DNA from: a virus
Direction: 5' to 3' (one strand)
Length of the DNA: 23,726 nt
Virus record (IMG/VR): IMGVR_UViG_3300031727_000054
Coordinates: 1-23,726 of that record
Shown: positions 1 through 23,406 of the stretch, piece by piece
Layout: every line of letters begins with the position of its first letter
Numbering within the stretch: the first letter of the stretch is position 1
Program-made: the position numbers and the translations under genes
Notes under the pieces: generated by a model
The model's input: the letters and a program-made list of their open reading frames with translations, nothing else
What the model was told of the DNA's origin: nothing
The model's database searches: none

Positions 1-2307
1 GTGGATGACAAATTTATACTCGTTCGGGCCTGTTTTAATAGCAGGTACGCACAATGCCCGATGAGCTGTTTCACTAAAACTCGCGACAGTGGCTACAGTG
101 TTCCAGTCCACCCAGTCCCTCTCCAAGCTGTGCAGCTCCCTTACCAAGTCTTCGTACCTACGGTACTCCACGTAGTTACTGCGGTCTCCTTTTATGTCGG
201 GGTCGTCACTATCATTGATCGAGTTCTCCACCCACCCGTGTACTGGCACCTCGATAAACTTGATATGCTTACACAGCTCCCAGGTCGGGTAAACCGCCAC
301 CATAAGAACCCACTCCGGCTCCTCATCATCGAACCACATGAACGTCGCGCCCTTGTACCAGTTCTGAAGGGTGTCAGCAACCAGGGGGTGGCAGCTCTCC
401 AGCTCCACCTTGTCCCGCGCATTAGAGTAAGCCGACAGCCCGCCTGAGTAATCGGTAGACCCGAAGGGCTTGTCAATGACGTAGGGCATGTAGTTGATTG
501 CGTTACCGTGCCGAACAGTGCCGTTCAGGTGGACTGGTTGCGTAGGGATCGGCCCTCCTCCGCAACGCTCGTAAGGCTTGTTCAGGTCGTCCACCTCGAT
601 CAGTGTCAGGTTCTGGAGGTGACACCCCGTTAATTGACGGAACAGCCGATAGGCGATCCTGTTTTCTTCTTTCTTCGTATTCTGAGCCTCGACCCTCACC
701 AACTCCGAGGACCACGGGTCAATAAAGTCAGCGTAACTGTGTCCGCCTGTGTCGCTCAACACCGCTCCGACGAAGAAAGTGGACATCGCGTCAACGAGAA
801 GTCTCCCCGGATAGATCGCAGCTCTGTTCGAGTTCGAGTAGTGAAAGGTGTCCAGTCTGGAGACGACTAAGTTTCTTCTGCCATCCACCATAACCGCAAC
901 ACGGTCACCTTTCGCAAAAACCGCCGCAGAGGGTGTAACAGTGTCCTCTACAAAACCTTCTTCCCCACCGGACACCGGAGTCGTCTGGGCCACTCCGAAA
1001 ACTGCTTCAGCCCGGTATATGCTTTGGTCCCTCGTGTCGCCGTCTAAAAATATAATGTCCAGCTCACGGGACCGAACAGACACCCGGACAACTGAAGCGA
1101 TCCGTACATACAGCTCCCTTGGGGTCAACACCCCCCTGGATCGGAGGTTGGAGGGCCCGTAAAGAGGGTGGCCGCTGCACACTGTTTTATTCTCCTTCCC
1201 CTCTTCGTCAACCCCCTCAACGGCAAAAGGCCGGAACACATTTCCGCTGATCGGCAGGGTCTGCCTGAACTGCCCGGCCGGACCATACGCATACAGCTCA
1301 TAGACTGTAGCACCACCGGCAATCACGGTAAAGTCCCCTACTGCGCCTACGGGATCTCCATTCAGGAATACCGCTGTCGCACCGGATATATCCCAAGAAA
1401 TAGTGTAGTCCCCACTCGGGGAGTCCACGTTGACAGGGTTTAGAGAATTAAACTCCTTATTCCCTGACTTAGCCAGTACAGCATCTGCGTCCGTGGAGAA
1501 ATAACCAGAGGGGGCCTTCGTAACTGTGTCGTCCCAGAATAACAACACTCTTTGGTTCACGTTCGCCACACTGATCTCAACAGTACTGTAGTGATCAGGT
1601 GTTCGGGCCTCGACAGTGTAGTCCCCCGGCAGCACCTCCGCTTCGAAGTACCCGTTGGTGCCTGTGCTGACAACATACTTATCAGTGGAATTCTGGATAA
1701 ACGCTACGTCGATACCCGGCAGGCCCTCGCCGATATCGAACTCCCCGTTGCTGTTGGCGTCTTCAAAAACTGTGCCGACCACCGCTTGGGTGGATTTGAC
1801 ACGGTACCCGAAGGTATGCGTGAGAACGTGGGACTCCGCGTCACCGGACCAATCACCGATAAGATGCCCGATCCCGAGTTCTGAAAAGTCTCTGGAGAGT
1901 ATACTCTTTCGGTGACCCCTGCCGTCCACTCCCGCATCTATGAAGAGGGTTTCGAACATCAGTTGAGCAGTGTCGTAGAGATCAAGGACCGCAGCAGAAG
2001 GGACGAGAGATATGTTTTCCCCATAAAGTGAGTAAGTGTAGGACGACGCATCGAATCGGTCTTTTGTGGACCCTGTAGTGGGGGAGTCGTGGGAGAAAAA
2101 ATCGTTGTCCAGCATGTCCTGGGAGTGATTGACTGCCAGAGTAGTGAGGTCGCTGTTGAGTATTAACGGCTGTTTCGCGTCCGGTGAAATAGTGCCGTCC
2201 GGCAAGCCCTCATTAAGGTCAATACCCAGGGAGGCCGCGTACTCCTCCGGGTTGCTTCTCGCAGAGTTGAACAGCTCCAGATAAAACAGCTCAAGATCAG
2301 TTGCCAT
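1..2307 (-). CDS. CAP-domain virion/tail protein, C-terminus cut by the window edge
   Basis: The frame is open for 769 codons from the ATG at 2307 to the left edge. It overlaps the preceding gene by 11 bases, so it belongs to the tail operon. Residues ~8-170 look like a CAP/SCP domain (Pfam CAP family): FNSARSNPEEYA near the start, NDFFSHDSP with His73, YGENIS with Glu97, GHRKSIL with His132, ELGIG, then LTHTFGYR in the place of the usual WTQxFG. Residues ~176-240 resemble an SdrD/SdrB-type beta domain with a calcium-loop pattern (DANSNGEFDIGEGLPG). An Ig-like stretch follows and then ~450 residues I do not recognise. There is no signal peptide, which fits a virion component rather than a secreted protein. 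CAP domains are found in secreted proteins of bacteria and eukaryotes; their function here is unknown. Host-surface binding is my inference. Domain call about 0.8; role uncertain. Confidence 0.85.
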   Translation of the reverse strand, partial: MATDLELFYLELFNSARSNPEEYAASLGIDLNEGLPDGTISPDAKQPLILNSDLTTLAVNHSQDMLDNDFFSHDSPTTGSTKDRFDASSYTYSLYGENISLVPSAAVLDLYDTAQLMFETLFIDAGVDGRGHRKSILSRDFSELGIGHLIGDWSGDAESHVLTHTFGYRVKSTQAVVGTVFEDANSNGEFDIGEGLPGIDVAFIQNSTDKYVVSTGTNGYFEAEVLPGDYTVEARTPDHYSTVEISVANVNQRVLLFWDDTVTKAPSGYFSTDADAVLAKSGNKEFNSLNPVNVDSPSGDYTISWDISGATAVFLNGDPVGAVGDFTVIAGGATVYELYAYGPAGQFRQTLPISGNVFRPFAVEGVDEEGKENKTVCSGHPLYGPSNLRSRGVLTPRELYVRIASVVRVSVRSRELDIIFLDGDTRDQSIYRAEAVFGVAQTTPVSGGEEGFVEDTVTPSAAVFAKGDRVAVMVDGRRNLVVSRLDTFHYSNSNRAAIYPGRLLVDAMSTFFVGAVLSDTGGHSYADFIDPWSSELVRVEAQNTKKEENRIAYRLFRQLTGCHLQNLTLIEVDDLNKPYERCGGGPIPTQPVHLNGTVRHGNAINYMPYVIDKPFGSTDYSGGLSAYSNARDKVELESCHPLVADTLQNWYKGATFMWFDDEEPEWVLMVAVYPTWELCKHIKFIEVPVHGWVENSINDSDDPDIKGDRSNYVEYRRYEDLVRELHSLERDWVDWNTVATVASFSETAHRALCVPAIKTGPNEYKFVIH

Positions 2308-3181
2308 GTTTGTACCCCGTAAAACAGGAGTCGAGGATTATAGGGAGAATGCGAAACGGGCAGTAATTCAGGTCGCCGCCGTTCTCTTCGCCCCATAGAG
2401 GAGCGTCCAGGGTGAGCACATTTGTGTGACCCGTGGACTCTTGGTACAGAGAAGTTATAGGCGCATCAGTATTCAGGGTGCCCACTGGGCCCTCGAACGA
2501 CCTGTTGACGATCCTCCTGCGGTTTACTTCGGGGGACCACGATCCGGCTTTTTCAGCGTAGGTGCTGCCGTAATGGTGAACTTCAGCAGCACCGGGCCGG
2601 AAATCGACGAGGGGCATTGCAAGTACTAAAACAAGACTGCCTGTTTCGTGCTGATACCGGTCAGTAAAGGGGACATTCAGGAAGGTGTCCGAGATATAGA
2701 ACTCCACGTCTTTCAAGCTCTTGATGGTCTCATTAACTACTCCTGCGGATTTTCTTATCTCTGAGGTTTTGATCAACTTCGGCGTACCCGTACCCGTCTT
2801 TTGGCATACCTTTATATCAGCCCGGTACGCCGCATCAGTGGTGTATTCTTCATCAGTGACCTCCATGATCCGGCCAGCCAGGATTTCGTAGGCACAGCAA
2901 AAACAAGCGTACTCATCGATAGCGATACCGCTTTCCCCGCCGATAACGATCACTGCCTGAGCGGCTCCAAAAATTATGTTGCATTTTATCTGGACGTTAT
3001 CCGCAGTGCTTATGTTTCTCTGGTACTGCTTCAGGCCCCTGAACTTCATGTGATTGTACAGCACTTCAAGCTCGGACATGGCCCTGTCCCTGAAGGAGTC
3101 CGCAAACGCAGTAGACACGCCGACATAATCCACTGTAGTGATTCTTGTCGGCAGCTTGAATAAAGGCGTCTGTTCAGACAT
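2297..3181 (-). CDS. Tail-region structural protein of unknown function
   Basis: The protein has 294 residues. The ATG overlaps the end of the upstream gene by 8 bases and the stop overlaps the CAP-domain gene by 11, so translation is probably coupled in the tail operon. I do not recognise a family. Residues 1-120 look alpha/beta with a hydrophobic stretch (IIFGAAQAVIVIGG, ~69-82) and a Cys cluster (CFCCAYE). The C-terminal half is beta-rich and polar. No signal peptide or clear membrane anchor is seen. Position between baseplate/fibre-like genes makes a tail or fibre-assembly role likely, but this is inference from context only. A chaperone or minor virion protein is equally possible. Confidence 0.75.
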   Translation of the reverse strand: MSEQTPLFKLPTRITTVDYVGVSTAFADSFRDRAMSELEVLYNHMKFRGLKQYQRNISTADNVQIKCNIIFGAAQAVIVIGGESGIAIDEYACFCCAYEILAGRIMEVTDEEYTTDAAYRADIKVCQKTGTGTPKLIKTSEIRKSAGVVNETIKSLKDVEFYISDTFLNVPFTDRYQHETGSLVLVLAMPLVDFRPGAAEVHHYGSTYAEKAGSWSPEVNRRRIVNRSFEGPVGTLNTDAPITSLYQESTGHTNVLTLDAPLWGEENGGDLNYCPFRILPIILDSCFTGYKHGN

Positions 3182-3638
3182 GACTGCTGTGCATTATTTT
3201 TACTAAAGCGTCGATACTCTCAACAGAGAAGTAACCGCCTCCGGGGTTAGACACCCCCAAGGACCAGTACCTCCCGACTAAAGTGCCTGGAACCCTGACA
3301 CGTTTTCTCTGGAAGCCGCTTGTGGATATAGGGACATCGATTTCCACTGGGTCAACTTCGTCCACCGATACCGTCAGAACTAAGTCTCCCTCAGACTCGA
3401 CACCGAGGTACACCGCGAAAATGGACTTGTTATGTTGGACCCCGAAGTCCGACAGGGGGGTAAAGAACTCCGACTGAATACCCGTCCCGTTGTCCTGTTC
3501 TCCCCCCAAGGTTGACAATCCCGTTCTACTGGCACCGAGGTAAACGTCCCCGAATTTCGCCATCGAATTAAAGGCGTAGTTATTATACTGCCCGATCCGC
3601 CACCCGGTCAACTCAATCTCGGTAGTTACGCATTTCAT
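3174..3638 (-). CDS. Small beta-rich tail-region protein, hypothetical
   Basis: The protein has 154 residues and starts at ATG 3638 behind a GAGAGGT Shine-Dalgarno. Only 3 bases separate it from the solenoid gene upstream, and its stop overlaps the next gene by 8 bases. The sequence alternates hydrophobic and polar residues (GDLVLTVSVDEVDPVEIDVP), which suggests a compact beta-sandwich, perhaps a carbohydrate-binding-like or receptor-tip fold. No family was recognised. Placement directly after the repeat protein suggests that the two work together in the tail tip or fibre. Low certainty about function, high certainty that the gene is real because of the SD and the tight operon packing. Confidence 0.75.
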   Translation of the reverse strand: MKCVTTEIELTGWRIGQYNNYAFNSMAKFGDVYLGASRTGLSTLGGEQDNGTGIQSEFFTPLSDFGVQHNKSIFAVYLGVESEGDLVLTVSVDEVDPVEIDVPISTSGFQRKRVRVPGTLVGRYWSLGVSNPGGGYFSVESIDALVKIMHSSHV

Positions 3639-3641
3639 TTT

Positions 3642-4784
3642 CTACCTCTCAAATTCAAGGTCCTCATAGGAACACGTTTCCGCCCCGTCTGAGCTGTTAA
3701 ATGCCCGGCCCTCCAGGACAATAGGCAAAAGAGTAAAACTCAGAGCACCTACTGGACTCACGTCGCCCTCCATAGTCAATTTCAACTTCCTCAGTTGAAA
3801 AACGAGATCCGAATGCAACCACGAACTGCCCTCCGAAGTCATTGTGGTTTCTTCAAGGGCCAAGAGTATTTCGTTAAGCTGGAGGCTGTCAGAGTCTCCC
3901 GTCAGCTGTACACCAAGTCTACGCAGGTCCAGGTACACAGAAGCAATTATCTCCGAGGACCCCTCCGCCACCAGATCAACTTTCTGGAGGGGTAGGGATA
4001 AATGAGCGGAGTATTCACTGCTACCTTGGGCAACCAGTAAAGCCTTTCGGAGCTTGAGATTTATACCAGCCCCGCAATATCCTGACAGCTTGGGGAACTG
4101 CAACTGAAAATCAACGTCCGCCAGTACCGGGTTGTCTGCTTTTGCTGTAAACCCTATCTTCCGGAGTTCGAGATCAAGCTGCCCTCCAGTGTACGAGTCA
4201 ACCAGAAGTCTTTCAAGCTCAACATCCAGGTAGTTGAACGAAGCGTTGCCGACCATCTGGAACACCACCTCTTTAGTGGTGAGGCTTATGGATGCACCGT
4301 AGTCACTGTACATCGCCAGATTGATGTGTTCCAGCACCAGTTCGAGACCCATGCTAAACCTCCCTGTTAAGATAATCGGTTCAAGTTCTATCTCTAAGTG
4401 CCCCCCCGTATTCAAGCTCAGGAGGATGTGTTCTAATTCTAAGTCTACGCCCCCGGAAATCGCAGCCGCACTTACGAGTTCCAGGCTTACGTGTTCGAGC
4501 GTAAACTCTATGTCGTTTTTAGAGGATGATGCAGTCCCGGCAACGTCAATTAACTCGGTTTCCAGGTCGAGTTCAGCTCCCGCGTGGCCCTCTAAGAGTA
4601 TGTGCTCTAAGGAAAATTCGAGTAAGCTGCCGGACGCTCCGGTTGCCTCAAGGGTCACCTCCTCCAGCACCAGCTCCAGAGCATTAGGCTCCAGACCTAC
4701 GGTATCCCATACCCAGAGGGATGATCCTGCCTCCAGAGTCGCCCAGTCCCCGGAGGACGTATTCGTGAATTTTGTATTAGCCAT
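3642..4784 (-). CDS. Tail protein built of ~17 short beta repeats (solenoid-like)
   Basis: The protein has 380 residues; its ATG overlaps the upstream stop by 8 bases. From about residue 34 to 360 it consists of tandem degenerate repeats of 17-26 residues. The core is two short runs of alternating hydrophobics, roughly L-x-L-x-L-E-x-I-x-L, followed by a small polar turn with Gly/Ser (examples: LEFSLEHILLEGHAGAE, VDLELEHILLSLNTGGH, LEIELEPIILTGRFSMG, INLKLRKALLVAQGSSE). I count 16-17 units. Early units carry Glu (LEH) where later units carry Arg/Lys (LRK), so charge changes along the molecule. This pattern suggests a beta-solenoid or stacked beta-hairpin rod. The N-terminal ~30 residues (MANTKFTNTSSGDWATLEAG) could be the attachment domain. 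I know no named family with this repeat. A fibre or spike shaft is inferred. Confidence 0.8.
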   Translation of the reverse strand: MANTKFTNTSSGDWATLEAGSSLWVWDTVGLEPNALELVLEEVTLEATGASGSLLEFSLEHILLEGHAGAELDLETELIDVAGTASSSKNDIEFTLEHVSLELVSAAAISGGVDLELEHILLSLNTGGHLEIELEPIILTGRFSMGLELVLEHINLAMYSDYGASISLTTKEVVFQMVGNASFNYLDVELERLLVDSYTGGQLDLELRKIGFTAKADNPVLADVDFQLQFPKLSGYCGAGINLKLRKALLVAQGSSEYSAHLSLPLQKVDLVAEGSSEIIASVYLDLRRLGVQLTGDSDSLQLNEILLALEETTMTSEGSSWLHSDLVFQLRKLKLTMEGDVSPVGALSFTLLPIVLEGRAFNSSDGAETCSYEDLEFER

Positions 4785-6723
4785 CGAAGCTCTCGTTGTA
4801 CGGCGGTGCTATGACGCAAACTTGAGCTGACAAAATCACTTCCTCCTGGAGCTTTGAGGTTACTCTGGTTTTAGTATCCGAAACATGCTCTATCTCCACT
4901 TTTGAGTCGTCGCACAGGAAAGCATCGTCCGAGCTGCCGAAAGTGGATAACGTCATCACTGTTTCAAGAAACGGAAATTCCGGCGTGTTGTCCCGTTCAG
5001 CGGACCTCATGAGCAACTTGACGTAAATTTCTGTGGTGCCCGCAGTGGGGGTGAAACCAGAGGTACACCCGTCTTTGAAGTCCTGAAGGGGATTCCCGCT
5101 GGTGATGCTGGACTCCACCACCCACGAAGCACCGTCCCACTTGTAAAAAATGCTGTTGTCGTCCGAAATAAGCCACAACGAGGTCGTGTTTGCGGCTTGT
5201 TCAGGAGTTGAGAACCCGCTGACACCTGAAACCTCTGAAGCAGAGGTGTATTTCAACGTGACAACCGCATCCGGTACCTCGTTATAATGTGTCTTAATGG
5301 GTTCAATAAGCTTCATGATCCCATCGTCTTCGTACACAAAGTAATAAGGGTACTTAACCGGGTGAAAAGCATTGATGAACTTTTTATGTTCCAAAAAACT
5401 GTAAGAATACAGTTCGATCAGCTCGTTAGGGCTTTCCGCTAAAAATACGCTGTTGCTAAAGTTTACTAAAAACTCGTCGAATACGTAGGAGCCCCCTTGG
5501 GTAAAACCAGAGAGATTCCAGGAGGCACAGTACTCCCCATCTAAGTAATCATAAGGGTACAGCTCATCATGGCTCGTCTTGATTAAGAAACCCTCGTCAG
5601 CCCCTGTTCCGTAGGGGTGCCTTAGCATTATGACCCCGGTAAACTGGACGTGTACTTCTCCCTCCGGTAAATATGGGTCATATCCCTCTGAAAACGCCCC
5701 ACCGTACTCCTTTATGTACGCGGAGTTCAAGTCGAATTCGGTGTACCCTAACGTTGATCTAAAAGGGCTTCCTAAATACGATATCGCGAATTCCTCTATG
5801 CCTACCACCCGTGAGTTATCGGCTGCGTACTTTAAGTAATCCGCTGGTAAAACATCCTCGTAGTTCGGGTTATCTGCTTCGTAAAAAATGCTTAAATCAC
5901 TCTTCAGTAAAACTATACCAGCGTTTACCGCGCCACCCACGTATATGTAAGAACCATACAGTAAAACATCGTAGGAAGCATACGGCCACGCTTCTGTTCT
6001 TGTCAGCCCCCAGGATGTGGTCTTAGTGTAAAAGTCGATTTTTTCAGTGCCGTCCAGGTAGGTCACGATTAACTCCGTGCCTTCAACACTGGCATAGTGA
6101 ACGGTACCTTTGCTTGAGTGGATCAGTGTTTGATCATAACCTGTCCCGTTCCATTCGTACAAAAGGACTAATGTGGTAGTGTACACCACTACTTTCGACC
6201 CGCCGTCGGACATCTTAATTCTTTCGTACGGAGAGAGGAGAACGTCCCCGGACCCACCAGGAAGAGTTATACTCTGTATCAGTTCAGGGTATATCTTCGG
6301 TTTTATAGCAACCCTGGTTGAAGTAACCAGGGAGTTAGCGTCTGAACTCATGACCTCCGGGAACGCCTGGACTATAGGGTAATATGAGACCCATACCTCG
6401 GTGTACCTCTTTCCCTCGGGGTCGCTCGTGTGGTCCAGCTCCAACCCCTCACCGGTTTTCACATGCTCCGCTTCCGCCAAAACGTAGCTCATCCCTGGGT
6501 GAACTCTTGCAGCGTATTCCCCTGCACCAAAAGCCGGGGTGTTTGTCAGGTCGTAGGTGTCTTTAAAAAACCCCATGACCCCCGCGCTACTGGTGACGTG
6601 CTCCAGCAGTCTGCTTGTGCAGAACCCGTCTCCGGGCTCACACAGCATTTTGTCCCCCTCGGAAAAAGTAGTCTCCGTTTCAATCAACTGTTTTATGTTG
6701 CTCCCGCACAATAGTAAATTCAT
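4777..6723 (-). CDS. Large beta-rich tail protein, possibly propeller-like
   Basis: The protein has 648 residues and starts in an ATGA overlap with the upstream gene's stop. The sequence is rich in Tyr, Asp, Gly and beta-branched residues. It has recurring short motifs in which a strand with a display-like pattern (LYEWNGTGYDQTLIHSS, IFYKWDGASWVVESS) repeats, as in beta-propeller or WD-like blades. The N-terminus (MNLLLCGSNIKQLIETE) and C-terminus (residues ~560-640, EIYVKLLMRSAERDN...) appear to be separate domains. No signal peptide and no lysozyme, peptidase or pectinase motif were recognised. Neighbours are other beta-rich tail proteins, so a host-contact or tail-tip role is inferred. The exact fold is unknown. 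Confidence 0.75.
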   Translation of the reverse strand: MNLLLCGSNIKQLIETETTFSEGDKMLCEPGDGFCTSRLLEHVTSSAGVMGFFKDTYDLTNTPAFGAGEYAARVHPGMSYVLAEAEHVKTGEGLELDHTSDPEGKRYTEVWVSYYPIVQAFPEVMSSDANSLVTSTRVAIKPKIYPELIQSITLPGGSGDVLLSPYERIKMSDGGSKVVVYTTTLVLLYEWNGTGYDQTLIHSSKGTVHYASVEGTELIVTYLDGTEKIDFYTKTTSWGLTRTEAWPYASYDVLLYGSYIYVGGAVNAGIVLLKSDLSIFYEADNPNYEDVLPADYLKYAADNSRVVGIEEFAISYLGSPFRSTLGYTEFDLNSAYIKEYGGAFSEGYDPYLPEGEVHVQFTGVIMLRHPYGTGADEGFLIKTSHDELYPYDYLDGEYCASWNLSGFTQGGSYVFDEFLVNFSNSVFLAESPNELIELYSYSFLEHKKFINAFHPVKYPYYFVYEDDGIMKLIEPIKTHYNEVPDAVVTLKYTSASEVSGVSGFSTPEQAANTTSLWLISDDNSIFYKWDGASWVVESSITSGNPLQDFKDGCTSGFTPTAGTTEIYVKLLMRSAERDNTPEFPFLETVMTLSTFGSSDDAFLCDDSKVEIEHVSDTKTRVTSKLQEEVILSAQVCVIAPPYNESFDG

Positions 6724-8927
6724 GATGAAAACAGTGGTCGAGTTTCAGTGCCGGAAACAACCAGGGATGTTCCTGTCGTCACAAAATCCGGGGTTCCCTC
6801 AACTGAGAGTACCCCTGCCGAAGTCCTTTTCAGGGGTCTGAACGAAGTGCCGTCGAAATGGTTTATGACCTCGGGCTCTGCCAGTCCAGGCCCGGTCACC
6901 TCCAAAAAACAGTGCGACGCTTTTGGAGCCAGGAGGGGGTATGTGGCTGATTGCTCCTTTATTAACAGTATATACGTGAACAGTGTTTGCATTGTAGAAA
7001 TGTCCACGCCCGGCATTCGGTCCCCATAGAGGACGACACTCTCTGCGTTATTTTTAGCCTCCGTTAAACTGGAGTAGGACACTAGACCACCAGCTGAGGT
7101 GACATAGTACAGGGGGTCGCTATCGAATTGTAGAAAAAACTTTAAATCCCTTTTCTCCGTTCCGGGGTTGTAGCTCTCAAAGCCGATGCCCGCAGAAGTT
7201 ATGTCGTTGTATCCGGACAAGTCGAACGTGACTTTTACGTAATGCGCCCCTATTTGTACGTGCGTCACTGGCACATTGTCAAAGTTCACGACATTGTACA
7301 GCTTCTGTAGCTCATTCCCGGAGGAGTAGAAATACACAACGTCCTCTTTTGCCCCGTTGTACATGCAGTAGTTAAGAGCACCAAACCATTTCGGTGTAGG
7401 GCTTATGAAATCTGTGATATAGCTGGAGAAGACTATGTGCCAATTTGGAAGAGTGTCCCAGTACTTAACGTTATTAGCGTGCCACCCTAGCGTGTAATTC
7501 TGGTTGGTAACTGATTTACCGTTTGTAAAACGGGATTCGAACCCAGAGGCGTAATTCAGAGTCTCCGTTACGTCCTTCCAAACCGAAACCAAGTTACTGC
7601 TCGTCGAAGTCCTACTCGCTAATTTAGGTGCTCTGACCCCCGTCACGCCTAGGGGGTGAAATACTTCCGAGTATACCAGGGTATCGCAGTTATAAGACCA
7701 GTTAATGCCGGAAACATACGTCCAGGAGGACGAATTCAGACGGAGTAACAATGCCCTGGAAGAATCCGAGTCCCACGCAATAGTGTATCCATCACCGGTT
7801 GCAAAAGTGGTACCTAGAGAAGAGTTTCGAGCACCCGAGTACGTAGGCCCGCTGGACCCATTTGAATTCAGGGTTGCGATATTGTCATCCTCTATTCCGT
7901 AAACAAGCCTATCAGTGGAACCATCCCAACCTATACAACTCCCCATGTGCCCTTGTCGAATACCGGATTCTATGGGAGCACCAACAGTGAATGCGCTAAC
8001 CCCGTCCCAAGCGTAAGGAAGCAGCATCCCTTCTTCCGTCTTAGTGTTAGTGTGTGTCGGGTGGCTCAAGTACAAAGTGCCGTTTGCCCCCCAAGTGGGT
8101 ATAAACACGATTCGATTAGTGCTAAACACGAACTCCGCAGGACGAGGTTCATCAGACCAAGCTAAGTACGAATTAACGGTACTAAATGTTTCAGTTGTGA
8201 AGTCGTATTCCAGCACATCCAAGTAAACTGAATAGCTCGCGCCGTTCTCAACCAACCGCGCCAGTGCAATGTGAGAATCGTCTATCTCTGCAACAGCGGG
8301 TACCGATATAAAGGTATCAGCAACAGTGGTACTGTACAATACGTGGTCTGTAGTCCGGTCCCCTAAGTTTATTTCCGTGGAGTCTATCTCCTCTGTACCC
8401 TTTATCACGTAATTAGAATCAGTAGTCCAGATTAATTCCGGCTCCGTGTCCCAGGACCCGACGGTACCGGTGTTAAACTCGAATCGGTAGTCCGCTGGTC
8501 CAGTAACTCCGTAATTAACAAGATTTTTTGGGCCAACGAGTTTATAGTGGTCGGGGATGGTACTTAAATCATAAGTGTTGCTACTGGAAAAAGAGAGTTC
8601 TGAGTTTAATAAATGGCCATCAGCCAGGAGGTACTCCTCGTCATACCCGAAGGTGTAAACACTGAAGTTGTCGGTCGTTCCGTCTTCCGGGTTATATGAC
8701 TGAACAAACCCGTCGGTCGGCGGATCGCAGGTACCGTAAAACGAAGTAATCTGGATGTCAGAAACGAACGCCTTTTCACCAGTGTACGACTCGTCCACCA
8801 GCCACCCGTTCCTGCCTGCTAGACCTTGGTTCGCGTACCTCAGTCCTTCGGTTCCGCAGGCGTCCCCACACCACACCATCTGAGTGGAGGGGAGAACCGG
8901 CCCTCTTGGAGTTCCTTCGCAGGTCAT
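6720..8927 (-). CDS. Large beta-rich tail protein, candidate receptor-binding component
   Basis: The protein has 735 residues and starts in an ATGA overlap with the 169-residue gene; its own stop overlaps the next gene by ATGA. The N-terminal ~45 residues contain Cys at 3, 20 and 24 (MVWCGDACG) and a Gly-rich turn region. The body has many short beta-strand/turn segments, including CIGWDGSTDRLVYGIEDDN and TIAWDSDSSRALLLRLN, that suggest a propeller of blades each near 50 residues. The C-terminal ~80 residues include HFDGTSFRPLKRT, a motif reminiscent of FDG-containing tail domains. I recognise no enzyme signature. By position it is a tail-fibre or adhesin-like virion protein. Paralogy with the downstream 648-residue protein is possible but not obvious by eye. 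Confidence 0.75.
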   Translation of the reverse strand: MTCEGTPRGPVLPSTQMVWCGDACGTEGLRYANQGLAGRNGWLVDESYTGEKAFVSDIQITSFYGTCDPPTDGFVQSYNPEDGTTDNFSVYTFGYDEEYLLADGHLLNSELSFSSSNTYDLSTIPDHYKLVGPKNLVNYGVTGPADYRFEFNTGTVGSWDTEPELIWTTDSNYVIKGTEEIDSTEINLGDRTTDHVLYSTTVADTFISVPAVAEIDDSHIALARLVENGASYSVYLDVLEYDFTTETFSTVNSYLAWSDEPRPAEFVFSTNRIVFIPTWGANGTLYLSHPTHTNTKTEEGMLLPYAWDGVSAFTVGAPIESGIRQGHMGSCIGWDGSTDRLVYGIEDDNIATLNSNGSSGPTYSGARNSSLGTTFATGDGYTIAWDSDSSRALLLRLNSSSWTYVSGINWSYNCDTLVYSEVFHPLGVTGVRAPKLASRTSTSSNLVSVWKDVTETLNYASGFESRFTNGKSVTNQNYTLGWHANNVKYWDTLPNWHIVFSSYITDFISPTPKWFGALNYCMYNGAKEDVVYFYSSGNELQKLYNVVNFDNVPVTHVQIGAHYVKVTFDLSGYNDITSAGIGFESYNPGTEKRDLKFFLQFDSDPLYYVTSAGGLVSYSSLTEAKNNAESVVLYGDRMPGVDISTMQTLFTYILLIKEQSATYPLLAPKASHCFLEVTGPGLAEPEVINHFDGTSFRPLKRTSAGVLSVEGTPDFVTTGTSLVVSGTETRPLFSS

Positions 8928-14498: not shown

Positions 14499-14573
14499 TT
14501 ATACCCAGGAAATCTTAGAAAACCCTGTTCGATAGTTGTCACCTGATTCAGTTGTAACCCTCATGTTCCGGAA
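14499..14573 (-). pseudogene. In-frame remnant of a C-terminal module behind a TGA stop
   Basis: After the TGA that ends the 65-residue gene, the same frame continues FRNMRVTTESGDNYRTG... to TAA at 14499. The sister gene at 14828-15007 has the homologous module with CGA (Arg) in place of this TGA. It is therefore either a remnant cut off by a C-to-T change or a read-through extension. The nucleotide match to the other copy is 66 identical bases, which argues for a very recent duplication. Confidence 0.6.
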
Positions 14574-14582
14574 TCACGGATT
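14504..14582. repeat. 79-bp direct repeat, copy 1
   Basis: This segment matches 14848-14926 with 66 bases exact and 3 mismatches in the last 13, at a distance of 344 bases. In both copies it encodes the same C-terminal module in the same frame. The third mismatched site decides whether that frame has TGA (here) or CGA (other copy). Confidence 0.9.
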
Positions 14583-14771
14583 CACGGATTCTCTCCGTAG
14601 GGTAAACTCTAGCTCATCCCCTATTTTCTTGGTTTCCATGTCCGTCTGTCTGATTTTCGCTTCCACCAGTTTAGCATCCGCCTTTACTTTCTCAAGTTCT
14701 GCTCTCGTCAGTTCGACTTGCACTTCCGCCATTTTAAGTTCTAATTGTTCACGTTGCTCCTTAAAACCCAT
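14574..14771 (-). CDS. Small coiled-coil protein, hypothetical (65 aa)
   Basis: The frame starts at ATG 14771, 9 bases after a GGGG-rich stretch that can serve as a weak Shine-Dalgarno (CGGGGTACGTT). The protein is almost entirely charged and helical (KEQREQLELKMAEVQVELTRAELEKVKADAKL...). Its style resembles the helical C-terminus of the portal protein just upstream in the operon. It stops at TGA 14574; an equivalent Arg codon in its duplicated neighbour suggests that the original product was ~25 residues longer. It may be a head-assembly cofactor or a nonfunctional leftover of a portal-derived duplication. Function is not known. Confidence 0.6.
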   Translation of the reverse strand: MGFKEQREQLELKMAEVQVELTRAELEKVKADAKLVEAKIRQTDMETKKIGDELEFTLRRESVNP

Positions 14772-14833: not shown

Positions 14834-15007
14834 TTTACTTTGTTGCCCCCAGGAAATCTTAGAAAACCCTGTTCGATAGTTGTCACCTGATTCAGTTGTA
14901 ACCCTCATGTTCCAGAATCGTGGATTCTTTCCGTCGGGGACTCTTCTCTGCTCCGACAGAACTTTTTTTAATTTTCGCTTACAAGCGGCTTCATCTTGTT
15001 TCCGCAT
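14828..15007 (-). CDS. Small basic protein with the intact duplicated module (59 aa)
   Basis: The likely start is ATG 15007, 17 bases before the end of the portal gene; an alternative GTG at 15019 has no better Shine-Dalgarno. The first ~25 residues are basic and helical (KRKLKKVLSEQRR). Residues ~27-58 contain NPRFWNMRVTTESGDNYR and end in QQSKY. The module from NMRVTTESGDNYR to KISW also occurs, after a stop codon, behind the next gene. I do not recognise a family. It lies between portal and scaffold, where head-assembly accessory genes are common. Translation is probably coupled to the portal gene. Confidence 0.6.
   Translation of the reverse strand: MRKQDEAACKRKLKKVLSEQRRVPDGKNPRFWNMRVTTESGDNYRTGFSKISWGQQSKY
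14848..14926. repeat. 79-bp direct repeat, copy 2
   Basis: Partner of 14504-14582. It lies inside the 59-residue gene, where it encodes the last part of the protein in an open frame. Direction and frame are the same as in copy 1. Confidence 0.9.
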
Positions 15008-20576: not shown

Positions 20577-20740
20577 TCACAGCTGGCCCACTTGTACCGC
20601 GTTTCTGTAAGTTACTGATATCACTGCGTTAATAAATTACTACTGACTGGCATACCTATTGCAATATAAAGAGTACAAGGACACAGTAACAGTGAATCAC
20701 TGGCCTAGTAGTAAAAAGCAAAAGAAAGCGAAATTAGTAA

Positions 20741-20769
20741 TTGACAGCAGGAACAGAACTTAGTAAAAT
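20741..20769 (+). promoter_or_regulatory. Rightward sigma70 promoter P1
   Basis: TTGACA at 20741-20746, 17-base spacer, TAAAAT at 20764-20769. The -35 is perfect, the -10 is one base from consensus, and an A-rich UP-like tract lies upstream. Confidence 0.9.
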
Positions 20770-20823
20770 AGAGGTGTAAAGAGTACAGCAGTAGAAAAAA
20801 GTAAAAGAAAGCGAAATTAGTAA

Positions 20824-20852
20824 TTGACAGCAGGAACAGAACTTAGTAATAT
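20824..20852 (+). promoter_or_regulatory. Rightward sigma70 promoter P2
   Basis: TTGACA at 20824-20829, 17-base spacer, TAATAT at 20847-20852. Same unit as P1, 83 bases downstream. Confidence 0.9.
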
Positions 20853-20906
20853 AGGGGTGTAAAGAGTACAGCAGTAGAAAAAAGCAAAAGAAAGCGAAAT
20901 TAGTAA

Positions 20907-20935
20907 TTGACAGCAGGAACAGAACTTAGTAAAAT
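20907..20935 (+). promoter_or_regulatory. Rightward sigma70 promoter P3
   Basis: TTGACA at 20907-20912, 17-base spacer, TAAAAT at 20930-20935. It is the closest of the three to the first plus-strand gene (about 205 bases). Confidence 0.9.
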
Positions 20936-20968
20936 AGAGAAGTAACCTGATCTTTGACAACTGAATAG

Positions 20969-21020: not shown

Positions 21021-21133
21021 CCGGCGGTCTGACAAACTGCCGGGTACTCTGTACTACTGAAGAGCCGGAGCGGTTGACCGGTTGTCCAGTAGTGCAGAGT
21101 ATAAGCAACTAACAGCTAAATAATACTAGGGAG
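21021..21133 (+). ncRNA. Structured leader RNA element, copy 1
   Basis: The element holds a first hairpin (CCGGCGGT / ACTGCCGG, loop CTGACAA) and a 15-bp stem formed by 21045-21059 and 21087-21101 (one U-G pair), enclosing a GC-rich inner hairpin (CCGG...CCGG). It then runs through AATACTAGGGAG to the Shine-Dalgarno of the first gene. It matches copy 2 with four substitutions and one 3-base indel. It is not a tRNA and I know no family for it. It could be a processing site (as T7 RNase III sites between early genes), a stabiliser or a regulator. Confidence 0.75.
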
Positions 21134-21139
21134 CGCACA

Positions 21140-21370
21140 ATGAAAACAGAATACGATAGATTTTTGTCTGAAATGAAAGCATCTGAAAAATACTGGAGAT
21201 TGTGTCAGGTGATTATAGAGGCAGCCGCAGCGAGGATATATAGGCGGATTATAGTGAATAATATCTATATAATCGCTTTTGTGAAAACTTTTTTGTACTG
21301 CGAGCTATGCCGGGCCGTAGAGGATCAAGAAGCTGATACATGGCATAAAACCAACCGCCCGGCGGTCTAG
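21140..21370 (+). CDS. Small early-region protein with one membrane-like segment
   Basis: The protein has 76 residues; ATG 21140 follows GGGAG with 6-base spacing. Residues 1-35 are helical and charged. Residues ~37-55 (RIIVNNIYIIAFVKTFLYC) are hydrophobic enough for a membrane segment, and a Cys pair CELC follows. The last codons (NRPAV) lie inside the first hairpin of leader copy 2, so coding and RNA functions overlap. No family was recognised. A small phage protein that acts on the host is a reasonable guess for this place, but not shown. Confidence 0.65.
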   Translation: MKTEYDRFLSEMKASEKYWRLCQVIIEAAAARIYRRIIVNNIYIIAFVKTFLYCELCRAVEDQEADTWHKTNRPAV

Positions 21371-21474
21371 CAAACTGCCGGGTACTCTGCACTACTGAAG
21401 AGCCGGAGCGGTTGACCGGTTGTCCAGTAGTGCAGAGTATAAGCAACTGACAGCTAAATAATACTACTAGGGAG
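21359..21474 (+). ncRNA. Structured leader RNA element, copy 2
   Basis: The layout matches copy 1. The 15-bp stem (21383-21397 with 21425-21439) is perfect here: the U-G pair of copy 1 has become C-G, which keeps pairing. The first hairpin extends to 9 bp by one more C-G pair, and its loop is CTAGCAA. It ends in a strong GGGAGG that serves the next gene. The stop codon of the preceding gene lies within it. Confidence 0.8.
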
Positions 21475-21480
21475 GTGAAC

Positions 21481-21705
21481 ATGCTACCTTGTGGGGAACT
21501 TAAAGCAGTAACCAGGGGAGGAAAGATAATTGGCTTTTACACCTTGCGGGATGACGACGTTTACGAGGTCGCATGGGTGGACGAATGGCAAACAATCCGA
21601 ACAACTTCTCTCGACACCCTCGCGGAAGTTAAAGCACTGCTGAATGAAGAGTATGAGAACCGTAAATTCTTGTATGGGGAGAATGCTTTACCGGTAGTAA
21701 AGTAA
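21481..21705 (+). CDS. Small acidic early-region protein (74 aa)
   Basis: The start ATG 21481 is chosen over GTG 21475 because GGGAGGTGA overlaps that GTG and sits at the right distance from the ATG. The product begins MLPCGELKAVTRGGKIIGFYTLRDDDVYEVAWVDEWQ, a beta-rich N-half with SH3-like alternation, then a helix (TLAEVKALLNEEYENRKF). No family was recognised. It follows leader RNA copy 2 and precedes a Cys-rich gene; a regulatory or host-interaction role is inferred from place only. Confidence 0.65.
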   Translation: MLPCGELKAVTRGGKIIGFYTLRDDDVYEVAWVDEWQTIRTTSLDTLAEVKALLNEEYENRKFLYGENALPVVK

Positions 21706-21940: not shown

Positions 21941-22044
21941 AATAACCGAATAACCGAATAACCGAATAACCGAATAACCGAATAACCGAATAACCGAATA
22001 ACCGAATAACCGAATAACCGAATAACCGAATAACCGAATAAGGA
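21941..22044 (+). repeat. 8-bp tandem repeat, 12 copies plus a Shine-Dalgarno-bearing last unit
   Basis: AATAACCG is repeated 12 times without change from 21941 to 22036. The next unit, AATAAGGA, is a variant that supplies the AAGGAG Shine-Dalgarno for the gene starting at 22053. The array lies in the untranslated leader. Copy number could change by slippage. Confidence 0.9.
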
Positions 22045-22052
22045 GAATTACT

Positions 22053-22502
22053 ATGCCACGCCATGACAAACTTGTTGAACTGATGATTTCCGGTAAACTG
22101 CCGATGCCCGGCTACCTTACTAAAAGCGACGAGGACTTGGCGTTATGCGCACAAGAGTTTGAGAAAACTGCGTTACAGTACATCAAAGCTGTGGAACAGG
22201 GACGAATGATTTGCTTTATCCACGGAGTTTCGCGCTCCGGGATGACTAGACGCATGACCTTTAAAGCGTGCATCAGGAACAGGGCATTCGGCACGTATTC
22301 GTATATTGACCTGAACTGGTTCATCCATGCGGCAACAGGTACCCGACTCAACAAAGACCGTGAATTAGTAGTCGGGGGCTGCGGGATGAATATGGTGTTC
22401 GCCACAAACTATTCAGTGATCCACAGTTTACAGCGGTTAGGGTACCTGAAACCGAAGCGAGCTGAAAGACTGGCCCAGATGACACCTGAAGCAGTTTATT
22501 AG
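22053..22502 (+). CDS. Conserved phage protein of unknown function with SRSGMTR and GGCGM motifs
   Basis: The protein has 149 residues; ATG 22053 lies 7 bases after AGGAG. It holds a SRSGMTRR motif (HGVSRSGMTRRMTFKAC) and a GGCGMNM motif with a following FATNYSVI helix. I recall this combination from small phage proteins that usually have no assigned function. The N-terminus is a short helical part (DKLVELMISGKLP). No membrane segment or signal peptide is present. A regulatory or nucleotide-related function could be guessed, but nothing in the sequence proves it. Confidence 0.75.
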   Translation: MPRHDKLVELMISGKLPMPGYLTKSDEDLALCAQEFEKTALQYIKAVEQGRMICFIHGVSRSGMTRRMTFKACIRNRAFGTYSYIDLNWFIHAATGTRLNKDRELVVGGCGMNMVFATNYSVIHSLQRLGYLKPKRAERLAQMTPEAVY

Positions 22503-22519: not shown

Positions 22520-22880
22520 CCAACAGAATCAGCGCTATACTGGTCCTGTTGGGCGGATATCCAGGGGAGTTCGAGTTTTACTCTTCGGACTCTTCACTCT
22601 TATGGAACTCTTCGCGTTTACTCTTCGGGGTGTTTTTTACACTGATCCAGGGGGATGACTAGGGCTGCGAAGAGTAAAAGAGTTAATAGGGTGATTTGAA
22701 AATTTGAAAAAAATAAAATGTGCAGAGAAATATAGGAAAAATGGGTTTAACTCTTCGAGAGAGCCAAAAAATCCGCTCATCCCACCGGATCAGCGTTAAA
22801 AATCACCCCGAAGAGTTCGGGCGAAGAGTTCACGAAGAGTGAAGAGTTCCCCCTGGATATTTAGCCAACAAAATCAGCGC
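22520..22880. other. Large inverted-repeat region with GAAGAGT motifs, origin candidate
   Basis: No gene is seen here. Collinear arms pair: 22557-22567 with 22850-22860, 22589-22601 with 22835-22847, 22605-22615 with 22821-22831, 22620-22632 with 22804-22816, 22642-22648 with 22787-22793 and 22652-22658 with 22777-22783. The 118-base centre is AT-rich (TTTGAAAATTTGAAAAAAAT) and holds a nested pair 22668-22675 / 22749-22757. About ten copies of GAAGAGT or its complement occur. CCAACARAATCAGCGC flanks both sides (22520-22535 and 22865-22880). Multiple dyads plus AT-rich DNA fit a replication origin; a long RNA hairpin or a small mobile element is also possible. Confidence 0.7.
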
Positions 22881-23043: not shown

Positions 23044-23406
23044 ATGAAAATACTGAACGGGTATTACCACGACAACCACGGGAACAAATGGAGTTCCTCC
23101 TTATTCACCGAAGAAGAGGCCGAAGTGTTTGCGTCCACCCTGGTTAGCTGCACCAACTGCACCAACTGCACCAACTGCACCGACTGCAAAGACTGCACCA
23201 ACTGCACCAACTGCAACAAATGCAAACACTGCACTAACTGCGCTCACTGCAACAAATGCAAACACTGCATCAGCTGCACCGACTGCGATTACTGCAAACA
23301 ATCTAAAGGCTGCACCAACTGCACCGGCTGCGAACACTGCATCAGCTGCACCGACTGCACCGACTGCACCGACTGCACCGACAGCTTTTACCACATTTAC
23401 TACTGA
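23044..23406 (+). CDS. Protein with Cys at every third residue
   Basis: The protein has 120 residues; ATG 23044 follows AGGAG with 7-base spacing. The first 35 residues form a small domain (NGYYHDNHGNKWSSSLFTEEEAEVF). From residue 36 to 111 a Cys occurs at every third position (units CTN, CTD, CNK, CKH, CIS), 25 Cys in 26 places; the one exception is Ser87. The tail is SFYHIYY. DNA repeats are 9-base units. Cys-x-x arrays could bind metals or form a disulfide-stacked helix. I recall similar low-complexity Cys-triplet proteins in phage and gut-metagenome data but no function. Confidence 0.75.
   Translation: MKILNGYYHDNHGNKWSSSLFTEEEAEVFASTLVSCTNCTNCTNCTDCKDCTNCTNCNKCKHCTNCAHCNKCKHCISCTDCDYCKQSKGCTNCTGCEHCISCTDCTDCTDCTDSFYHIYY

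Follow-up and report, generated by a model that had tools for sequence, protein, structure and literature searches.

What is the role of a structured leader RNA that stands, in two nearly identical copies, in front of two small early genes of the same virus? The stretch of DNA in which this question arises, here called the window (G000), is an IMG/VR virus record of 23.7 kb, and its portal, major capsid and large terminase genes place the virus among the P22-like podoviruses. Structural genes are encoded on the - strand, and an early region on the + strand begins at about 20.7 kb. Three tandem predicted promoters of near-consensus sequence (TTGACA-17-TAAAAT/TAATAT, at 20741, 20824 and 20907) are followed there by leader copy 1, ORF1, leader copy 2, ORF2, ORF3, ORF4 and a cysteine-repeat protein, with leader copy 1 beginning about 80 nt downstream of the last predicted transcription start. 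The features needed for the argument are these:

20707 to 20955, + strand: three tandem 83-nt repeats, each with one predicted sigma70-type early promoter.
21021 to 21128, + strand: leader copy 1, with hairpin P1 at 21021-21043, hairpin P2 at 21044-21102, its inner hairpin at 21063-21083 and a mini-hairpin at 21104-21117.
21128 to 21133, + strand: Shine-Dalgarno AGGGAG of ORF1, recognized by its sequence.
21140 to 21370, + strand: ORF1, 76 aa, without a family match.
21359 to 21466, + strand: leader copy 2, with P1 at 21359-21381, P2 at 21382-21440 and the inner hairpin at 21401-21421.
21469 to 21477, + strand: Shine-Dalgarno AGGGAGGTG of ORF2, likewise recognized by its sequence.
21481 to 21705, + strand: ORF2, 74 aa, an orphan.
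22053 to 22502, + strand: ORF4, 149 aa, a conserved early gene that is 50% identical in the nearest relative (L004).

The idea that ORF1 and ORF2 form a duplicated gene pair was rejected, as the two are not similar by reading. No relative of ORF2 was found, and ORF3 showed just a weak resemblance to cysteine-repeat sequence. Cysteine-rich CTNC-repeat proteins (phrog_15341) are represented at 23044-23406 in the window and by several copies in a relative (L004/L165). The window contains further repeats: about a dozen perfect 8-nt units (AATAACCG) in the gap between ORF3 and ORF4 (21941-22044); long imperfect inverted repeats rich in GAAGAGT/ACTCTTC at 22540-22877, a possible replication origin, with similar motifs at the corresponding position in L004; and an 80-nt direct repeat (96%), with copies 344 nt apart at 14504-14583 and 14848-14927, in the interval that separates the portal gene from the following gene.

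The two leaders agree at 104 of 108 positions (96%), lie in the same orientation at a spacing of 338 and are set apart by four substitutions and by an extra CTA unit just before the Shine-Dalgarno of copy 2, as the first-pass annotation had described. The substitutions, given as copy 1/copy 2, are 21031 G/A, 21032 A/G, 21052 T/C and 21111 A/G. Two of them are adjacent in the loop of P1 and turn TGA into TAG, both of which are stop codons in the frame of ORF1: the TAG at 21368-21370 ends ORF1 inside the P1 loop of copy 2, and TGA occupies the equivalent place in copy 1. Another falls in the loop of the mini-hairpin, and the last converts a wobble pair, so that U21052.G21094 in copy 1 corresponds to C21390-G21432 in copy 2, again as first noticed. 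This had been called a stem-preserving change, which is correct insofar as one wobble pair is kept as C-G. The sole stem change is, however, single-sided, no double (compensatory) change was found between the window copies, and random placement of four substitutions preserves all 34 predicted pairs in 14% of cases (P = 0.14). Preservation of the stems from copy to copy is therefore weak evidence for structure, and we rejected the four substitutions as proof of it.

In the predicted fold, both copies share the same 34 pairs, beginning with P1, a GC-rich hairpin of 8 bp (9-10 when the U.G or C-G closing pairs are counted, and up to 10 in copy 2, where C21358-G21382 lengthens the stem). P1 abuts P2, which is built from 16 bp, a 1x1 A.C mismatch, an A-U pair, a 1x1 G.G mismatch and an inner stem of 6 bp with a 9-nt loop, giving 16 + 1 + 6 = 23 pairs in 25 layers. 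A 3-bp mini-hairpin lies 3' of P2, followed by the Shine-Dalgarno and ATG. The initial description of a GC-rich hairpin, a 15-bp stem with an inner hairpin and a Shine-Dalgarno, with the first stem extended in copy 2, is thus borne out, P2 now measuring 16 bp. Minimum free energies amount to -52.6 kcal/mol for copy 1 and -60.8 kcal/mol for copy 2 (z -4.96 and -6.11), and none of 200 shuffles folds as well as either. The antisense strand folds more weakly (-42.8 and -55.0, respectively) because U.G pairs turn into C-A. When the window was shuffled 200 times with dinucleotides preserved, no arm longer than 14 bp arose, against the 15-bp Watson-Crick arm of copy 2; once G-U pairs are allowed, 16 bp is unexceptional and is reached in 26 of 200. 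Within the full two-copy transcript each copy is predicted to fold on itself, with probabilities of about 0.93-0.99 for P1 and P2.

What the fold might do is narrowed by its surroundings. Predicted accessibility of the Shine-Dalgarno is the same after removal of P1 and P2; sequestration was therefore rejected, and a plain on/off switch is disfavoured. On the + strand neither copy was called as an intrinsic terminator, and no U-tract or T-run follows the stem. The hairpins stand 37-40 nt upstream of the start codon.

At its upstream side, copy 2 had been said to overlap the stop of the first gene, which holds for ORF1 as called. A conserved C-terminal peptide, FFVLRAMPGRRGSRS followed by a stop, nevertheless lies in the -1 frame of ORF1 at 21289-21336; its counterpart in L004 reads FFSLRAMTGRRGSRS, also followed by a stop, and 9 of the 13 base differences between the two genomes in this segment fall at third positions of the -1 frame. 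The match suggests that gene 1 may really end at 21336, reached by frameshifting or as the result of a broken ORF1; copy 2 would then start 22 nt downstream of it. The run T TTT TTG at about 21289-21295 is a candidate -1 slip site; the alternative is a frameshifted ORF1.

Is the element known from elsewhere? Only chance matches, and no sequence relative, came from blastn against phages (including INPHARED) and plasmids or from searching IMG/VR and GTDB for exact patterns, in a scope from which entries for this genome or a very close one may have escaped view. Among the matches dismissed as chance, one (L168) comprises 20 nt within an HNH-type reading frame (SSAEYK) and four (L169-L172) cover the inner hairpin only. 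A cmscan of the window against Rfam 15 returned no match at E up to 1, and no tRNA was found. A covariance model built from both copies (R1), the check proposed at the outset, was run over 160 related loci and 55 whole records; the window alone was significant, and the best outside match (L065, E = 0.02) was rejected as an unrelated intergenic hairpin. Since no sequence relative was found, the element itself is without covariation support. The nearest relative, L004, is the sole close one by TerL (83% identity, 61.8-kb contig). Over 66-68 nt, its early promoters share 81-83% identity with those of the window; they stand directly before genes, with short leaders, and the leader element is absent from the whole L004 record. 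The window-like promoters occur singly in L004, before two early genes. In the long operon of a relative (L165, 8889-8932, - strand), a 19-bp non-terminator hairpin lies about 45 nt before a gene start and is possibly a processing site.

Although the first-pass annotation knew of no described family with this layout, that statement proved too strong, as T7 R sites, the put RNAs of HK022 and the SAS/ESAS elements of actinophages share parts of it. In T7, three tandem host promoters (A1-A3) precede a long hairpin and the first small early gene, the same order as in the window; the T7 hairpin is found at about 844-911 with gene 0.3 at 925, compared with P1-P2 at 21021-21102 and ORF1 at 21140. Sites R0.3, R0.5, R1, R1.1 and R1.3 are also repeated in gene gaps and have about 23-25 helical layers. 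Two T7-type features are present here, a duplex of at least 22 nt and a place between early promoters and first gene as well as in gene gaps. A third, the asymmetric internal loop, is lacking in P2 when predicted folds are compared: the T7 sites consist of two roughly 9-10 bp stems around such a loop, without a preceding GC-rich hairpin, whereas in the window P1 precedes a 16-bp stem, two symmetric 1x1 mismatches flanking an A-U pair and a 6-bp inner stem. There is no sequence relation between them. The putL and putR sites of HK022 resemble each other, each with two abutting stem-loops in about 70-85 nt, and both lie downstream of early promoters (PMC9378689), an arrangement that the window resembles in its adjacent stem-loops, its two similar copies and their closeness to the early promoters; put stems are bulged, whereas those of the window are long, near-perfect duplexes. 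On the sense strand the put covariance model gave the element 8.1 and 5.4 bits, with unpaired positions, against 87-96 for HK022 putL/putR, and the conserved motif GG..CAGGATGA is absent; put membership was rejected on both counts. An antisense match of 18.5 bits, spanning P1 of copy 2 and ORF1, was judged to be chance. Judged by family criteria, the element does not qualify as a T7 R site, put RNA, SAS/ESAS or member of an Rfam family. By analogy, it may work like a T7 R site.

Guided by the T7-parallel layout and the unchanged access to the Shine-Dalgarno, we tentatively choose an RNase III-type processing or stability (end-protection) hairpin in early mRNA as the best explanation, to which we give slightly less than an even chance. 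It builds on what is directly observed, namely the copies, their predicted fold and their position after the promoters and before the Shine-Dalgarno sites. Transcription would begin at the three tandem promoters of host type, and P1 and the near-continuous 23-pair duplex of P2 would form in vivo ahead of each gene. The host's RNase III, or a comparable activity specific for double strands, would bind and cut P2 and split the messages of ORF1 and ORF2. The cut would leave the downstream gene a short leader with an exposed Shine-Dalgarno and the upstream gene a folded 3' end, and the stability and expression of each early gene could be set independently. To give copy 2, the entire unit from stop codon to Shine-Dalgarno would have been duplicated, either along with a small gene or around one. 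This explanation is consistent with a sense-strand fold far better than shuffles and weaker in antisense, with the high probability of P1 and P2 in the two-copy transcript, and with a duplex whose 23 pairs in 25 layers exceed the minimum RNase III target size of 22 nt (PMC5371410). The T7-like order, the lack of a U-tract and of a + strand terminator call, the Shine-Dalgarno access that argues against a sequestration switch, and hairpins of the same layout repeated in other phages with an ORF4 homologue (L018, L007, L046 and L078) also favour it. Against it stand the missing homologues and hence missing covariation, the same kind of promoters serving early genes without the element in L004, and the P2 stem without a T7-type asymmetric loop.

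The hairpins might instead remain uncut and act as a passive 5' stability or insulation element, shielding the mRNA from 5'-dependent decay or isolating the ribosome-binding site. Such a role agrees with very stable hairpins at their distance from the start codon, with no terminator and no effect on Shine-Dalgarno access; in addition, the highly structured ompA RNA is not cleaved by RNase III (PMC5371410), and structure alone therefore does not imply cleavage. A near-perfect duplex of 23 pairs is, however, within the size range of RNase III substrates, and copy 1 is set back from the 5' end of the transcript by about 80 nt. We consider a passive role unlikely.

Another possibility is that the site works at the DNA level, in binding of a phage or host protein, recombination or replication, and that the RNA fold is a by-product of the inverted repeats. 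In this context, SAS/ESAS elements (Cluster K mycobacteriophages and Microbacterium Cluster EF) and the inverted repeats of Clusters O/EG are relevant as repeated leaders with inverted repeats just upstream of small non-structural gene starts (PMC3203893, PMC7302621). An ESAS consists of 17-bp imperfect inverted repeats separated by 4-13 bp and adjoins the 13-bp SAS motif GGGATAGGAGCCC; those who described it saw little support for hairpins in the mRNA (PMC3203893). By reading, the SAS motif is absent at the start codons of the window, where the leaders end AGGGAGCGCACAATG and AGGGAGGTGAACATG. The 15-bp arms of copy 2 do form exact inverted repeats; copy 1, in contrast, has a T-G mismatch in DNA that makes a valid U.G pair in sense RNA only. 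Moreover, the duplicated unit comprises all 108 nt including the loops and the stretch to the Shine-Dalgarno, not the arms alone, and both copies stand in the same orientation before genes. A DNA-level site is thus quite improbable.

About 160 related loci were scanned for repeated segments folding much better than shuffles, ORF4 having served as bait for comparable early regions. The window and a few others were returned; besides the window, the set comprises five ORF4-neighbour loci from four phages and one TerL-neighbour locus, too few for statistics. The four metagenomic phages (L007, L018, L046/L047 and L078) hold 2-6 copies of intercistronic long hairpins unrelated in sequence to the window. 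These lie in early regions with an ORF4 homologue and occupy the whole interval between the stop codon that ends one small early gene and the ribosome-binding site or start of its successor; their stems vary from copy to copy but stay paired. Three of the four show several compensatory stem changes. In L018, 23 shared pairs contain 4 double and 1 single change with none broken, and slid pairings give 0; L007 has 4 double changes in 17 pairs; the three copies of L046 have double changes in 5 of 8 pairs, a value matched by 2 of 500 shuffles. The GC-rich phage L078 carries six copies, all inside the early operon of a 46-kb record (334-7683, + strand), with double changes in 3 of 17 consensus pairs, and some of them share the 1x1-pair-1x1 interruption of P2. 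A possible seventh, divergent copy (3020-3110) was left out of this count. With its six co-varying copies L078 is a richer case for the mechanism than the window. With only two sequences to compare, about 6% of shuffle controls attain the values seen in L018 and L007; each case by itself is therefore suggestive, and together they are more convincing.

Models R1 and R3 (the latter from L078) do not cross-match, and the window element was rejected as a member of the L078 family since R3 has no match in the window; the likeness is therefore one of layout and not homology. The hairpins of the other phages back the layout, not the mechanism in the window phage. Within the searched material the leader sequence is unique to this virus, and its layout is shared by unrelated viruses. 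Of the original proposal, a duplicated leader acting as a T7-style RNase III site, stability element or regulator, the duplicated leader is real, and T7-style processing or stability remains the preferred reading, based on the T7-like layout and on co-varying leaders of the same layout elsewhere; its strongest support is thus indirect. For this particular sequence the searched material yielded no further copies and no covariance support, an outcome that in part goes against the proposal by its own terms.

These comparisons also bear on a recent neutral duplication that carried the hairpin along without a selected function. Only four substitutions separate the copies, the element is absent from all relatives, the region is rich in other repeats, and the 14% of random substitution sets that keep every pair would suit such an origin. 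The copy ends, however, coincide with the hairpin base and the Shine-Dalgarno, the folds reach z values of about -5 and -6, and four other phages have the layout too, three of them with compensatory changes, which makes neutrality quite improbable. Weakest is put-like factor-independent antitermination, in which nascent P1-P2 would bind RNA polymerase and promote terminator readthrough in the early operon: apart from the paired stem-loops and two promoter-near copies shared with putL/putR (PMC9378689), the low model scores, the missing motif, the near-perfect duplexes and the lack of any intrinsic terminator called downstream within the window leave it only a slim chance.

Returning to the processing hairpin, the recurrence of the layout invites a broader and rather doubtful conjecture. 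Phage early operons might repeatedly evolve modular 'leader cassettes', exact stop codon-to-ribosome-binding-site units multiplied within a genome, whose hairpins are kept by compensatory change while their sequence is free. Each new small gene would come with a processing signal of its own and with homology at which further genes could be swapped, and the window element would be a young example with two copies and two hairpins. RNase III-type segmentation of early mRNA is best known from T7 and T3; if our reading is true, it also operates in P22-like phages and in others unrelated to T7, and processing hairpins evolve anew as duplicable units. The two hairpins in the window and six in L078, several with compensatory changes, provide a concrete and easily tested set. 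Processing of this kind would explain how small early genes can be gained without disturbing the expression of their neighbours.
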